Source: Gemmataceae bacterium (lineage in GTDB: Bacteria > Planctomycetota > Planctomycetia > Gemmatales > Gemmataceae). From it: a DNA stretch of 64,000 bases. Positions 48,017-56,434 of the stretch are shown here, piece by piece. How positions within the stretch are numbered: position 1 is the first letter of the stretch; every line of letters starts with the position of its first letter. The translations under genes and the position numbers were made by a program. The notes beneath the pieces are model-generated. The model did no database searches and was not told the DNA's origin. It worked only from the letters and a program-made list of their open reading frames with translations. Where the stretch lies: contig JAQGHQ010000296.1 of NCBI GenBank assembly GCA_028288765.1, positions 1 to 64,000 of the forward strand, read 5' to 3'.

Positions 48017-48913
48017 TTACTTCGGCGACGGGGCCTTTTCCGGCCGGGCGGGGGGCGGGTACGCCTTTAACGTCTGGTGCAGTTCCGCGTCGTACCCGGC
48101 CGGGACGTCCTCGAACCCCTTGAGCTTCCACAGGAACAGGAACGCCCGACCCTGTGGGTTGTCCTTGACCTTCAAGAGCCCGCCCCGGATCTTTTCGACC
48201 GTGACCTCATCGACCCCGCCCTTGCGGTACACGATCACCGCCGGGGGGAACGGGTCACTCTGGCACAGGACTTTCACCTGCGTGGCCGCACCGGGCTTGT
48301 TGTTCTGATACGCGGAGAGGGCGGCCGTGTCCACGAGGGCCGCCGCGACGTCGCCGTTCCCGACGGCATCCAGTGCCTCCTCCGGTCCCCAGGTGGCCTT
48401 GTTGACCGGCCGGCAGCACCCGGCCGGGAGTGTTCCCAGGAGATGGGTGTGGTACAGCTCGGAGTGGATCTTCGTGCCCGACGGGACGGCCACGCACGCC
48501 CCCTTGAGGTGGGCCGGCTTCGTCGCGTTCGACTCGACATGGACGACGATGCACGCCTGGGGCTTCTTCGGCGGGACGGTCACGACGAGGGCCTGGAGGT
48601 CCGGGTACCGGCCCCGCACCCACGCCCACTCGAACCCGTGAAACACGCCGAACTGGAGCTTCTTCTCGTTCAGCCTCGCCGCGAGGACTTCGTACTCGTC
48701 CACCACCTCGATGTCGCCGTCCAGACTCGTATGCTTTTTGAACAGATCGCGGAACGGGGCGGCGGCGGCCTGGACGACGGGCGGGGGAACGTCCCGGAAC
48801 ATCCCGCTCAGGACCCCGAGCTTGATGGTCGTCTGCGGGGGCTCGGCACCCGCCCGGGGGGTAACCCCCACGGCCATCACCAACGTCATGAGGAACCCGA
48901 ACACCCGAGCCAC
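48017..48913 (-). CDS. PhnD-like periplasmic binding protein
   Basis: GTG at 48913 is preceded by AGGGGGG and opens a signal peptide (ARVFGFLMTLVMAVGVTPRAGA), giving 298 aa. The mature protein follows the phosphate/phosphonate binding protein PhnD fold: IKLGVLSGMFRDV, LQFGVFHGFEWAWV, KGACVAVPSGTKIHSEL and AALVDTAALSAY. No ABC permease or ATPase is nearby, so it may serve as a sensor or act with a distant transporter. It lies 77 bp downstream of a TolC-like gene on the same strand and may share its transcript. Confidence 0.82.
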   Translation of the reverse strand: MARVFGFLMTLVMAVGVTPRAGAEPPQTTIKLGVLSGMFRDVPPPVVQAAAAPFRDLFKKHTSLDGDIEVVDEYEVLAARLNEKKLQFGVFHGFEWAWVRGRYPDLQALVVTVPPKKPQACIVVHVESNATKPAHLKGACVAVPSGTKIHSELYHTHLLGTLPAGCCRPVNKATWGPEEALDAVGNGDVAAALVDTAALSAYQNNKPGAATQVKVLCQSDPFPPAVIVYRKGGVDEVTVEKIRGGLLKVKDNPQGRAFLFLWKLKGFEDVPAGYDAELHQTLKAYPPPARPEKAPSPK

Positions 48914-48990
48914 GGCACACCCCCCTGTTAGTCGCGGCCCGGACGTCCTGCCCGCGCCGATGCCGTACGCCAAACTCACTCGGCCGCCGC

Positions 48991-50400
48991 TCAGCGGCCC
49001 GGGAACGCCGGACGGATCCCGCCCGCGGTGACCCGTTCCAGGGCCGCCAGCGCGAGCAGGTACTGGTACACCGCTTCCACGTACTCGGACTGGAATTCGG
49101 CCGCCTGGCCGTAGCCCAGGAGCAACTGGTCCTTCTGGGCCTTCGGGTTGTCGAACCCCTCCCGGACCCGGTCCATGAGGTCCTTGGCGGCGTCGAACCC
49201 CTCTTTACCCACCTCAACCCGCTTCGCCGCCTTCTCGAAGGTGTAGAACGTGTTTTCCGCCTCCAGGACCATCAGGTTCCGGACCTTCTCGTAGACCGCG
49301 TCGGCCCGCTGGCTGAAAGCCATTACCCGGGCCACCCGGTCGGCCTTACTCCCGACCACCTGGGGCGGCATCGACGGCGGGATCGGCTCCGGCCGGTACT
49401 CCTTCTCGGGGTCCCGGCTGCCGGACGGGAGCAGCTTGTCGTGGATGTCTGACCCGGACCCGAGGGTGGGAACGGCCCGGCGGAATGGGATCTTGCCCTG
49501 GGCGTAGACCTCGAGGCGGAAGGCGTCCGCCCCGGCCGCGGCGAGGGCGAGTTCCGGCCGCCGACATAAGGTCATCTCGATCACCATCTCCTTGGTCAAC
49601 TTGACGTTCTGGGACATGACCGGGAGTTCCTTGTCCTTGACCCGGAACACCTCGTCCTGGGCCCCCATCACCTCCCGGAGCGCGGCGTACGCCTGCTTCT
49701 CGCCCGCCCGCGCGGTAGCCAGGAGCCGACGGGTCTTTGCCTGGCCCAGAAGCATCACGTCCAGCTTGGCCCGGGTCATCTCGCCGGGTTGCTTCGATTG
49801 CAGCAGTTTATTTGCGGCCAAAACGAGGAGTTCGATCTGGGCGACGACCTCCTCGGCGAGTTGCTCCTGCTGGTGGGCGTAAACCACCGTGTAGTAGAGC
49901 CGGGTGACGTCGTGGACGACCTCGTTGTGAAGCTTCTGGACGTCGGCCGCGGCGGCGATCACCCCGCGGCTCGATTGCTCCTTGCGGATGGGCAGGTCGG
50001 GGCTCAACAGCGACCCGAGCCGGCCGATGTTGTTGAGCGCGTGCATCCCCGCGGAGGTCGCCTGCTGGCTGGCCCGGACCGCCTTCAGGGCCGGCTGCCG
50101 CTCGAGGGCGATCGCGATGCACTCGCCGAGGGCGAGTTCCGGCCCGGCATCTTTCGCGACCTCCTTCTCGTCGTTCGCCTTCTCGCCCTCAACCCCCGGC
50201 TGAGTCGTCGCGGTCGCCCCCGGCAGGCCGTGCGGGGCCACGCGCAATTGGCCCAGTGGGCGGGGCGGCGGCACTGTGGGAAAGACGGGGGCGGGTTGCT
50301 GGCCCGGGCCACGGGCGTGGAAGAAGACGAGGACGACTGCCAGGACGGCCGCGACCCGAAATAGGTGGACTCGGCCTGCGGTCGCGACGGTCATCAGCAT
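48991..50400 (-). CDS. TolC-like outer membrane efflux protein
   Basis: I chose ATG 50400, which follows AGGGGATC and opens a hydrophobic export segment (VHLFRVAAVLAVVLVFFHARG); a longer frame upstream is unlikely. The 469-aa protein has the long amphipathic helices of outer membrane efflux proteins (LALGECIAIALERQPALKAVRAS; HDVTRLYYTVVYAHQQEQLAEEV; AEFQSEYVEAVYQYLLALAALERV). A Pro-rich linker follows the signal. No inner-membrane pump or adaptor gene adjoins it; instead a PhnD-like gene follows. Confidence 0.78.
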   Translation of the reverse strand: MLMTVATAGRVHLFRVAAVLAVVLVFFHARGPGQQPAPVFPTVPPPRPLGQLRVAPHGLPGATATTQPGVEGEKANDEKEVAKDAGPELALGECIAIALERQPALKAVRASQQATSAGMHALNNIGRLGSLLSPDLPIRKEQSSRGVIAAAADVQKLHNEVVHDVTRLYYTVVYAHQQEQLAEEVVAQIELLVLAANKLLQSKQPGEMTRAKLDVMLLGQAKTRRLLATARAGEKQAYAALREVMGAQDEVFRVKDKELPVMSQNVKLTKEMVIEMTLCRRPELALAAAGADAFRLEVYAQGKIPFRRAVPTLGSGSDIHDKLLPSGSRDPEKEYRPEPIPPSMPPQVVGSKADRVARVMAFSQRADAVYEKVRNLMVLEAENTFYTFEKAAKRVEVGKEGFDAAKDLMDRVREGFDNPKAQKDQLLLGYGQAAEFQSEYVEAVYQYLLALAALERVTAGGIRPAFPGR

Positions 50401-50685
50401 GGCCGATCCCCTGGCCGACCGGCCGCCGTGCTCGAACCACACGGACACCCCCGTGCGGAACTCCGGCGGCCGATTATCGCGGTCCGTGACGCGAACGGGC
50501 GAAGCGTTCGTGTCATTTTCATCGACCGCCAGAGGGGCCGACTGGACTTCCACAGGGTGGGAGTGCTGAATCCCCATGCGGGCAGTGCCGGATAAACGGT
50601 CTGAACCGCATGGACCGTATCCCACCTCCGGGCCGGGCATGCGTACACTTTAGAATAAGGTGGGTGGATACCGGAGGCGTCGAGC

Positions 50686-52179
50686 ATGCACCAGACGAGC
50701 CCGGGTGTCGAGCGGGCGGTCCAAAGGGCTGGGGCGTGGGCCGAACGGCTTGGGGCCACTGAGGTCCGGCTGGCCGACCTCGTCCTCGGGCTGCTCGACG
50801 AGGAGGAAGGGCGCCCGGCGGTCCTCCTCGAACGGCTCGGTCTGGTTCCCGCAGATGTGCGCCAAAGTATTGTTTCCCTGCCACTTACGAAATATCCACC
50901 CGCCCCGCCTCTTATCGCCCTCTACGACGCCGCCCGGGATTGGTCACTCGCCAACCGGGCCGATCCGGCGTTCATGACCGATGCGCTGCTCCTCGCCGTC
51001 CTTGAAGTTGATCCTGATTTCGGCATGACCGTTAGGAGGTTCGGCCTCGACGTCAATCAGCTGGCGGCTTTAATGACGGGAGACGAGACACCGATCGCCC
51101 CGCCCGGAGATACGACGACCGCTTTCATCCTCCCTGATTCTACAGACGATCTCGACGCGGCCCGGGTGCTCGACGCGAACCTCAACCGGGCCCGGGAAGC
51201 CCTCCGGGTGCTGGAGGATTATTGCCGGTTCGTTCTGGACGATCGGTTCCTGACCGGCGAGGTCAAGGCCGCGCGGCACGACCTCGCCGAGGCGGCAGCG
51301 CAAATCGCACCTCAACTCTTGCTCGCCGGCCGTGAGACTCTCCGTGATGTGGGCACGACCGTCTCGGCGTCCGGGGAATACGATCGGGGGTCGCCGCGGC
51401 AGGTCGCCGCGGTGAACCTGAAGCGGCTTCAGGAATCGCTCCGGAGCCTGGAGGAATACGGGAAGCTATTCGGGCCCCAGCTCGGTCGCGACCTGGAAGC
51501 CATCCGGTATCGCGCGTACACGCTCGAGCGAGCAATTGTCATCGGTTCGGGCGCGCGGGAAAAACTCGCCCGGGCGCAGCTGTACGTCCTGCTAACGGGC
51601 GCGCAGTGTGCGGCGTCCATGGACTGGGTGATCGAACGGGCCGCCGCCGGTGGGGCGGCCCTCTTTCAGCTGCGCGAGAAGACGATGCCGGACCGCGAGC
51701 TATTGGAGCGGGCCCGGAACGTCCGCCGGTGGACGCGAATGGCGGGTACCCTGTTCGTCGTCAACGACCGGCCGGACGTCGCGAAGCTCGTCGAGGCGGA
51801 CGGGGTCCATCTCGGCCAGGACGACATGCCGGTGAGGGAAGCCCGCCGCATCGTGGGCCCGGACGCCCTCATCGGGGTGAGTACGCACTCGATCACCCAG
51901 GTTCGGCAGGCGGTCCTCGACGGGGCCGACTACATCGGGGTGGGGCCGACATTCCCGTCGAAGACCAAAGTCTTCGACGCATTCCCCGGGCTGGCGTTCG
52001 TCCGCACCGTGGCGGCCGAAACCTCCCTCCCGGCCTTCGCCCTCGGAGGAATCAGCCCGGAAAACATCGGTCAGGTGGTCGCGGCCGGGGGGCAACGGGT
52101 GGCGGTCGGTTCGGCCGTCTCTCAGGCCGAGGACCCCGAGCCGATCGCCCGGGTTCTGCGGGCGGCACTGGAGGGATGA
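50686..52179 (+). CDS. thiE: Clp_N-ThiD2-ThiE fusion: thiamine-phosphate synthase
   Basis: The 497-aa protein begins after GGAGGCG. Residues about 1-135 look like a double Clp N-terminal repeat (VRLADLVLGLLDEEEGRPAVLLERLGL; FMTDALLLAVLEVDPDFGMTVRRFGLDV). Residues about 158-285 are ThiD2-like (ARVLDANLNRAREALRVLEDYCRFVLDD). Residues about 295-497 form the ThiE TIM barrel: LFQLREKTM, FVVNDRPDVAKLVEADGVHLGQDD, YIGVGPTFPSKTK and PAFALGGISPENI. ThiE joins HMP-PP and HET-P to thiamine phosphate. The ThiD2-ThiE pairing is known; the Clp_N part is unusual. No TPP riboswitch was seen upstream. Confidence 0.87.
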   Translation: MHQTSPGVERAVQRAGAWAERLGATEVRLADLVLGLLDEEEGRPAVLLERLGLVPADVRQSIVSLPLTKYPPAPPLIALYDAARDWSLANRADPAFMTDALLLAVLEVDPDFGMTVRRFGLDVNQLAALMTGDETPIAPPGDTTTAFILPDSTDDLDAARVLDANLNRAREALRVLEDYCRFVLDDRFLTGEVKAARHDLAEAAAQIAPQLLLAGRETLRDVGTTVSASGEYDRGSPRQVAAVNLKRLQESLRSLEEYGKLFGPQLGRDLEAIRYRAYTLERAIVIGSGAREKLARAQLYVLLTGAQCAASMDWVIERAAAGGAALFQLREKTMPDRELLERARNVRRWTRMAGTLFVVNDRPDVAKLVEADGVHLGQDDMPVREARRIVGPDALIGVSTHSITQVRQAVLDGADYIGVGPTFPSKTKVFDAFPGLAFVRTVAAETSLPAFALGGISPENIGQVVAAGGQRVAVGSAVSQAEDPEPIARVLRAALEG

Positions 52180-52435
52180 TGTATCGCCGTATGGGCGGTC
52201 GTTCCGGTGTCCGGAGGTACTGCCAGGCCGATTCTTTCAGCCTCCCCTCACTCCCTGTTCCGCATGCGACGAAGAACAAAGACGTGGCATGGCGGGTCTG
52301 GAGTAACTTGAGGGGATTGGTAAAATGGGAGAGATACACCCGACTGTGCCGCTCGGCGTTGCCCCGAGTGCGGACCGGGTGGTGTTGCCGCAGTCGGACC
52401 GAGACCCGGGCCTTGTCCGTGGACGGAGTCGAGGA

Positions 52436-52897
52436 ATGGACGGCATTCGAGAACTCCTGGAGGCGATCCGCGACAGCGGCATTCTGACCGGCCACTTCCG
52501 CGGTCTGCTCCACATCGCCATCGGCCGCAAGATCACAAAGTCTGACGGGACAGTCATTTCCACCGGGGTGACGTGGCGGGAACTGGCCGCCGTGCTGAAA
52601 CTTCTCCGGTTCGACCGCGAACTCGTCCGGGAGTTCGGTGCGGACCCGGACGCACTGGCACCCCGCGACCGAGAAAGGTTCTGGTACTCGGCGATCGCAC
52701 AGGCGAAGGTCGAGTCCCGGGAAGCGGTCGCCGATGCCGAAGTGCTTGCCGGTCGGTTAAAGGACCTCGGGTTCATCGTCGGCCCACCCCCGACCGCTTC
52801 CGCGGCGACACGCCCGCTGACCAGGGCGAAGCCGCAGAAGGCTCCCGAGCCGAAAGGCAAAACGAAGGAAGAGAAGCCGCCGAAGCGGAAGAAATAG
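52436..52897 (+). CDS. Hypothetical protein with basic Lys/Pro-rich tail
   Basis: The 153-aa protein (ATG 52436 with GGAG...AGG upstream; a longer frame is possible) has a predicted helical body (IRELLEAIRDSGILTGHFRGLLHIAIGRKIT; WRELAAVLKLLRFDRELVREFG) and a highly basic C-terminus rich in KPK, KEEKPPKRKK. I recognise no family. The tail suggests nucleic acid or polyanion binding. It stands 256 bp after the thiE fusion. Confidence 0.6.
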   Translation: MDGIRELLEAIRDSGILTGHFRGLLHIAIGRKITKSDGTVISTGVTWRELAAVLKLLRFDRELVREFGADPDALAPRDRERFWYSAIAQAKVESREAVADAEVLAGRLKDLGFIVGPPPTASAATRPLTRAKPQKAPEPKGKTKEEKPPKRKK

Positions 52898-55376: not shown

Positions 55377-56231
55377 TCAATCGAAAATGACCGTCTTGCG
55401 GTCGTACACGAGGACGCGGTGGTCGATGTGCCAGCGGACGGCCCGGGAGAGGACCACTTTTTCGAGGTCGCGGCCCTTTTGGAGCAGGTCGTCGAGCCCG
55501 TCGCGGTGGGAGATCCGGACCACGTCCTGCTCGATGATCGGCCCCTCGTCCAGCTCGTCGGTCACGTAGTGGCTCGTCGCCCCGATCAGCTTGACCCCCC
55601 GCTCGAACGCCCGGTGGTACGGCTTCGCCCCGCTGAACGCCGGGAGGAACGAGTGGTGGACGTTGATGACCCGCCGCGGGTACTTGGCGACGAAGTCCGG
55701 GGAGAGAACTTGCATGTACCGCGCGAGGACGACGAGGTCGATCTTGTTTTCCGCGAGGAGGTCGAGCTGGTGCCGTTCGGCCTCGACCTTTCCCCCCGCC
55801 GCGACGGGAACCAGATGGAACGGCACCTTGTAGAACACGGCCCACTTCTCGGCGGCCGGGTGGTTGCTGACGATCAGCGGCACCTCGCACGGGAGCTCGC
55901 CGGTCTGGTGCCGGTAGAGCAGGTCCATCAGGCAGTGGTCGTATTTCGACACGAATAGAGCAACCCGGAGCGGGTGGTCGGACCGCTCCAGCCGCCACCG
56001 CATCTCGAACCGGTCGGCGAGCGGGGCGAACCGGCGGGGGAACTCGGCGAGGTCGAGGTTGAACCCCGCCAGGTCCCACTCGACCCGCATGAGGAACAAG
56101 CCCCGCTCGGCGTCCTGGTGCTGATCGGCGTGCATGATGTTCGCGTCGTGCCGGTACAGGAACTCGCCGACCCCGGCGACGATCCCCTTCCGGTCCGGGC
56201 AGGTGATGAGCAGGACGGCGGTGTTTTTCAT
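55377..56231 (-). CDS. purU: Formyltetrahydrofolate deformylase PurU
   Basis: The protein (284 aa from ATG 56231; a TTG at 56261 would add 10 residues) has an N-terminal ACT domain (TAVLLITCPDRKGIVAGVGEFLY) and a C-terminal formyltransferase domain. The catalytic motif is INVHHSFLPAFSGAKPYH with the His, and SHYVTDELDEGPII holds the catalytic Asp. PurU hydrolyses 10-formyl-THF to formate and THF, controlling one-carbon pools. Length is usual for the family. Confidence 0.94.
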   Translation of the reverse strand: MKNTAVLLITCPDRKGIVAGVGEFLYRHDANIMHADQHQDAERGLFLMRVEWDLAGFNLDLAEFPRRFAPLADRFEMRWRLERSDHPLRVALFVSKYDHCLMDLLYRHQTGELPCEVPLIVSNHPAAEKWAVFYKVPFHLVPVAAGGKVEAERHQLDLLAENKIDLVVLARYMQVLSPDFVAKYPRRVINVHHSFLPAFSGAKPYHRAFERGVKLIGATSHYVTDELDEGPIIEQDVVRISHRDGLDDLLQKGRDLEKVVLSRAVRWHIDHRVLVYDRKTVIFD

Positions 56232-56434
56232 CAGGCTTTTCGGCTGGAAATGGGTGGACAAGGTCTGTTCTGGACGAGCCTCTCACCCGGCTCGGCCGCG
56301 CGGTCCGGGCCGCCTCCCACAGTTTATAGCCGGTTCGCCCGAAAGCCGCTGTCGAACGGCAAGCTCACCGGCCCGCCGGCCGGGCGACACGTTCCGGGGA
56401 GTCGACTCTCGGGCCGGTCCGGTGCCGCTCCGGC

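Follow-up and report, generated by a model that had tools for sequence, protein, structure and literature searches.

The N-domains of Clp proteins (Clp_N) are generally regarded as unfoldase components, and the bifunctional ThiD2-ThiE enzyme (PRK02615) is known from cyanobacteria and planctomycetes. Plant ClpT1 and ClpT2 bind the ClpPR core; they have a Clp_N-like fold without AAA modules, and no enzyme is attached to them. Mycobacterial ClpC2, which carries a Clp_N-like domain apart from AAA modules, is reported to be a repressor of its own promoter and an antibiotic sponge (PMC10030653); in the protein described here, by contrast, an enzyme is attached to the domain. Fusions of ClpN repeats to vWA domains have also been described. 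The window analysed in this study is a stretch of 64,000 nucleotides from a Gemmataceae bacterium (contig JAQGHQ010000296.1), and its forward strand encodes, at 50686-52179, a protein of 497 residues in which a double Clp_N domain, a linker, ThiD2 and ThiE follow one another, as read from Pfam, NCBIfam and an AlphaFold model. Each of the three domains is known, as is the pairing of ThiD2 with ThiE. The open-access literature searched contained no report of the Clp_N addition, of its class-wide spread, of its forming a single clade, or of a divergent clpC-thiE gene pair.

The open frame begins with the ATG at 50686, which coincides with the ATG starts of homologues, and its stop codon ends at 52179. 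In Pfam, ThiD2 (PF17792, HMP-phosphate kinase family) was matched at residues 160-282 (51163-51531, forward strand; E 1.4e-40, 138.9 bits against a cut-off of 23.5) and ThiE (TMP-TENI, PF02581) at residues 300-478 (51583-52119, forward strand; E 1.4e-56, 191.2 bits, above the cut-off). The NCBIfam models TIGR00693 (175.1 bits) and PRK02615 (thiamine phosphate synthase, 365.2 bits) also scored above their cut-offs, the latter spanning residues 153-496. Q328, R330, K332, N360, D361, R362, G454, G455 and other motif residues of ThiE, which we take to be catalytic, were invariant in the 85 aligned rows of homologues. By these conserved motifs, the window protein is an HMP-P kinase and thiamine phosphate synthase that is putatively active. 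It resembles PRK02615 in all of these respects and differs from it at the N-terminus, since the family model begins near ThiD2 and the cyanobacterial and Phycisphaerae relatives examined carry no Clp_N extension. As thiE genes without the extension retain both catalytic domains, the extension would not be required for catalysis.

The preliminary description had read the first 135 or so residues as paired Clp N-terminal repeats, and this reading stood up both in profile searches and in structure prediction. The double domain covers residues 1-132 (50686-51081, forward strand), with repeat 1 at about residues 5-65 and repeat 2 at about residues 74-132. When the whole protein was searched, the Clp_N model of Pfam (PF02861) matched residues 32-63 at 19.1 bits, just below the cut-off of 20.7, and the domain may therefore escape automatic annotation; the score exceeded the cut-off for fragments consisting of residues 1-145 (22.7 bits) or 1-163 (21.4 bits). 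A phmmer search of PDB sequences with residues 1-145 placed ClpC N-domains at the top, with ClpC1 (5gui) at E 2.7e-6 and Bacillus ClpC N-domains at E ca. 3e-5. We then used an alignment of 97 N-terminal extensions (A1), which has the window sequence first and was drawn from 106 rows after removal of near-duplicates and of sequences containing gaps or N. The A1 profile matched the N-domain of Mycobacterium tuberculosis ClpC1 with an E value of 2.8e-22, ClpB with 4.5e-18 and ClpA with 5.5e-12, and 82 of the 97 extensions had a Clp_N match of their own at E<=0.01. The single-sequence Pfam score is marginal, yet the identity is settled because the homologous extensions match Clp_N.

AlphaFold predicts eight helices for residues 1-163 (mean pLDDT 90.3, pTM 0.79). 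Nearly all of the best 50 rows in Foldseek were Clp/Hsp100 N-domains, and 50 of 50 among the VIA-align matches listed were Clp/Hsp100 N-domains or plant ClpT-type proteins (ClpT1/T2, PDB 4y0b and 4y0c), the best match being a ClpC-type N-domain (Z 16.4, 131 aligned residues, rmsd 2.5). Residues 1-132 are confirmed, by profiles and by the predicted fold, as a double Clp_N domain. Like the ClpC N-domain (PDB 3fh2, 3wdc and 5hbn), the extension is a predicted eight-helix double repeat with a profile match that stands N-terminally on a probable tether; unlike it, it is not followed by AAA modules, none being found among the Pfam and NCBIfam matches of the window protein except for the N-terminal stretch of ClpK. 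In the full-length AlphaFold model (pLDDT 94.3, pTM 0.72), the linker at about residues 133-150 (51082-51135, forward strand) had a pLDDT of 54-59, and the relative placement of Clp_N and ThiD2-ThiE was not fixed. Since the model has this stretch of low confidence at about residues 131-150, the tether between Clp_N and ThiD2 is likely to be flexible.

A search for ThiD2 was positive in 156 of 292 genomes of the phylum and in 84 of 95 genomes of the window's own family. A thiE frame was obtained from each of 120 stretches except L214, which was chosen for a lone Clp_N protein, and an extension was counted when at least 115 residues preceded ThiD2. In the own family (f1, 79 loci, with the window and the second copy L212 counted apart), the extension was found in 78 of the 79 loci, the sole miss being L153 of genome G324; part of one f1 stretch, L136, reads N. 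It was also found in 27 of 36 loci from other families of the same class. Counted by genome, an A1 Clp_N match within the ThiD2 frame was present in 24/25 for f2, 1/2 for f4, 1/1 for f5, 1/1 for f6 and 0/7 for f3. From their grouping with named loci in the trees, f1 would correspond to Gemmataceae, f2 to Planctomycetaceae and f6 to Isosphaeraceae, and f3 appears to be Pirellulaceae-like. Among the A1 matches listed for the 292 genomes, none outside the class had Clp_N and ThiD2 in one frame.

The named records that bear the extension include Singulisphaera acidiphila DSM 18658, one record each from Isosphaeraceae, Gemmatales and Gemmataceae, Planctomycetaceae records, and several records labelled Pirellulales or Planctomycetia, L226 being a weak case. 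The extension was absent from one Pirellulaceae record and one Planctomycetota record among the named loci and from the Phycisphaerae and cyanobacterial records examined, and L232 and L266, which are long frames of the Phycisphaerae type, gave no A1 match. An HMM built from ClpC only proved too narrow as an independent detector of extensions, giving the window an E value of 5.3e-4 and, at E<=1e-3, retrieving 17/79 f1 frames, 3/36 other class frames and 2/61 named frames. The fusion spans orders of Planctomycetia. The claim that Clp_N is fused to ThiD2-ThiE therefore survived the taxonomic survey, in which homologues shared the extension across the class. Genome G353 has two ThiD2-ThiE genes, L177 and L212, of which one is fused and one is not; the unfused copy lies beside clpC on a 7-kb contig, groups with f3-like rows and may represent contamination or transfer. 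In addition, contig C144 of the own genome (L007) has an extended AAA+ frame in which Clp_N matches weakly; this frame presumably resembles ClpV of the type VI secretion system.

The ligand sites of the extension were compared with those of ClpC. We take T81 to be the marker of the second pocket of ClpC, paired with E106, and the groove residues are presumed to be V13, V14, L88 and L92. The residues of the phosphoarginine pockets of the ClpC N-domain include T7, E32 and E106 (PMC12583610). T7, E32, T81 and E106 were all invariant in 24 of 24 ClpC N-domains of the class. In the extensions, the equivalent of E32 was replaced (E in 2 of 21 f2 rows, and not among the six commonest residues in the 73 f1 rows), as was that of T81 (A, S, H and others). 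The equivalent of T7 stayed S or T (72/73 f1 and 21/21 f2 rows), and that of E106 was E or D in 64/73 f1 rows and E in 20/21 f2 rows. The pocket pairs T7/E32 and T81/E106 of the ClpC type were thus not found, each pocket being short of one marker; the kept residues at T7 and E106 could serve a partial ClpC function or only helix capping.

The equivalents of V13, V14 and L88 remain hydrophobic in the extensions. At the L92 position, which figures among the mutants described for the ClpC1 N-domain, all 24 class ClpC have M and 65 of the 73 f1 rows have R or K; most f2 rows have no basic residue there (L in 6 and R in 5 of 21, the others mixed). A second position, in the repeat 1 loop, is V in every one of the 24 ClpC and R in 41 of 73 f1 and 16 of 21 f2 rows. 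In the window these are R84 (codon 50935-50937, aligned with L92 of ClpC1) and the ThiE-specific basic residue R43 (codon 50812-50814), both on the forward strand; the assignment comes from one alignment of distant sequences and may be off by a helix turn. Since each pocket lacks one of its two markers and one groove position is Arg or Lys in Gemmataceae, ordinary ClpC-type ligand binding is not supported, and the extension does not look, from the aligned residues, like a faithful copy of the ClpC ligand domain.

Because each pocket has lost a marker while new basic residues are conserved, we favour the reading that the extension is a repurposed, ThiE-specific binding or regulatory module made from Clp_N and flexibly tethered to the ThiD2-ThiE enzyme, and we give this reading about an even chance of being correct. 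Such a module would stand apart from the catalytic machinery and link the enzyme with a partner or an anionic ligand; it would tune the level or activity of ThiE, or else localise ThiD2-ThiE.

The relationship of the extension to ClpC was examined in a Clp_N tree of 60 rows, 41 of which were ThiE extensions. All 41 fell into one clade (support 98/96). ClpB is separated by a branch with support 99/95, and the clade of extensions lies on the ClpC side of it. ClpC, joined by a single free-standing Clp_N protein, made up a clade of its own (98/97), to which the ThiE extensions were sister. The end branches of the tree were long (median 0.78 changes per column), and those of the ThiE extensions were much longer than those of the ClpC N-domains. 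An origin of the extension nested inside planctomycete ClpC was not seen in this tree, a result that the long branches weaken.

In 25 of the 36 non-f1 loci of the class, thiE has a full-length clpC as its head-to-head neighbour, and these comprise 18 of the 27 that carry the extension and 7 of the 9 that do not; of the extension-less loci lacking this partner, L115 ends near a contig edge and L127 showed no clpC. The same arrangement was seen in the named loci L221, L222, L228 and L231. The gap between the two open frames ranges from an overlap to ca. 1.3 kb, and loci with a divergent clpC upstream of thiE include L099, L105, L109, L114, L117 and L122. In extension-less f3 loci (L103, L109, L122, L123 and L124), an open frame of ca. 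220 codons lies on the clpC strand between clpC and thiE. No clpC was found near the fused thiE in the 79 f1 loci, some of which have little upstream sequence. In the window, too, no clpC lies beside thiE; the upstream gene carries an outer membrane efflux domain, a protein of this type adjoining a phosphonate-binding-type periplasmic protein at 48017-50640 on the reverse strand. Downstream of thiE lie a 190-aa ORF without a Pfam match (52325-52897, forward strand) and a PurU-like gene with ACT and formyltransferase domains (55377-56261, reverse strand). A riboswitch before thiE was also considered and rejected, as the window had no Rfam match at the gathering threshold and 14 related loci yielded only a tRNA. 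Upstream of extension-less thiE, the matches listed for 13 regions included no split or relic Clp_N on the thiE strand; the A1 matches listed for these regions were on the opposite strand, in the frames of head-to-head clpC.

Early in the history of the class, thiE and clpC probably stood side by side in divergent orientation, and the Clp_N domain of ThiE may derive from the adjoining clpC. It was possibly gained by an inverted duplication of the 5' end of clpC; this origin is not shown by the tree, in which ClpC forms a clade apart and a long branch leads to the ThiE extensions.

The neighbourhood bears on the main alternative, in which the extension serves Clp-linked control as a docking platform for adaptors, a decoy for ClpC ligands in the manner of ClpC2, or a handle for ThiE turnover. 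Being head-to-head, clpC and thiE could share a divergent promoter region, and the extension falls on the ClpC side of the tree. One gene for an McsB-family arginine kinase (ATP:guanido phosphotransferase, PF00217) was present in each of 34 of 34 class genomes (for example, G000 C581 26587-27186), and phosphoarginine signalling may therefore operate in Planctomycetia, judging from gene content. ClpS was found in 15 of 20 genomes and was absent in 5 of 5 f2 genomes tested. Given the kinase gene and, in most cases, ClpS, the protein may have Clp adaptors in its vicinity. ClpC2, reported to be a decoy that bears Clp_N (PMC10030653), offers a precedent; a CLPC1 trap in chloroplasts enriched the thiamin enzyme THIC (PMC8889267), which is only loosely relevant. 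Against this alternative, E32 and T81 are lost in the ThiE extensions and invariant in all 24 ClpC sequences, the groove position is basic in most f1 rows, and clpC is not near thiE in the f1 loci. Moreover, the adjacency of clpC and thiE is independent of the extension, since it is also present in loci without one. We regard Clp-linked control as possible but rather doubtful. The preliminary description had left open whether the domain places ThiE under proteolytic or adaptor control or is a repurposed ligand-binding domain; the lost pocket markers and new basic residues favour the latter, and the divergent clpC and the McsB-family gene are circumstantial support for the former.

The extension might also be a passenger, an accidental fusion that has been tolerated and selected only for solubility. 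Mapped on a 68-row ThiD2-ThiE tree, the presence and absence of the extension required 8 state changes, and the extension-less rows of the class (the f3 rows, L128, L129, L153, L212, L224 and L228) were scattered. Since the Clp_N parts form a single clade, the simplest reading would be one gain near the base of the class and several later losses. Lineages without the extension still retain ThiD2-ThiE as a normal enzyme, and with repeated loss the domain is arguably not essential. These observations, together with the long Clp_N end branches, would suit a passenger. However, dN/dS of the extension was 0.07-0.35 in 20 of 21 close pairs across many lineages (dS was zero in the remaining pair), as compared to 0.03-0.21 for the catalytic part in 21 of 21 pairs. 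By these ratios, the extension is under purifying selection and diverges faster than the catalytic part. This selection, the near-complete retention in f1 and the conserved ThiE-specific residues that ClpC lacks make a passenger unlikely.

A more specific account is of similarly low probability. In an ancestral planctomycete, the 5' end of clpC would have been copied and inverted before the divergent thiE; the copied Clp_N would have lost its ClpC-type ability to bind peptides and phosphoarginine and acquired a basic site, made of R43 and R84, through which ThiE senses an anionic ligand, such as a phosphate of the thiamine pathway or a phosphorylated partner. If this is true, the synthesis and stability of ThiE would both be tied to the state of Clp proteostasis. 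Finally, the idea that the extension is not Clp_N, for which only the whole-protein Pfam score speaks, is scarcely credible, since a chance match of a helical bundle is ruled out by the profile, the fold (Z 16.4) and the 82 matching homologues, and a wrong start codon by the ATG starts aligned across many loci.

Under the favoured reading of a repurposed module, a single gain of Clp_N would have taken place close to the base of the class, in a genome with thiE and clpC head-to-head, and the extension would later have been lost in several lineages. The natural absences (the f3 family and genomes G272, G268 and G324) offer ready comparisons. The fusion of Clp_N to a vitamin B1 enzyme, which is spread across the class, is under selection and in many genomes has a divergent clpC next to it, provides a concrete test case for the recruitment of proteostasis domains to metabolism.
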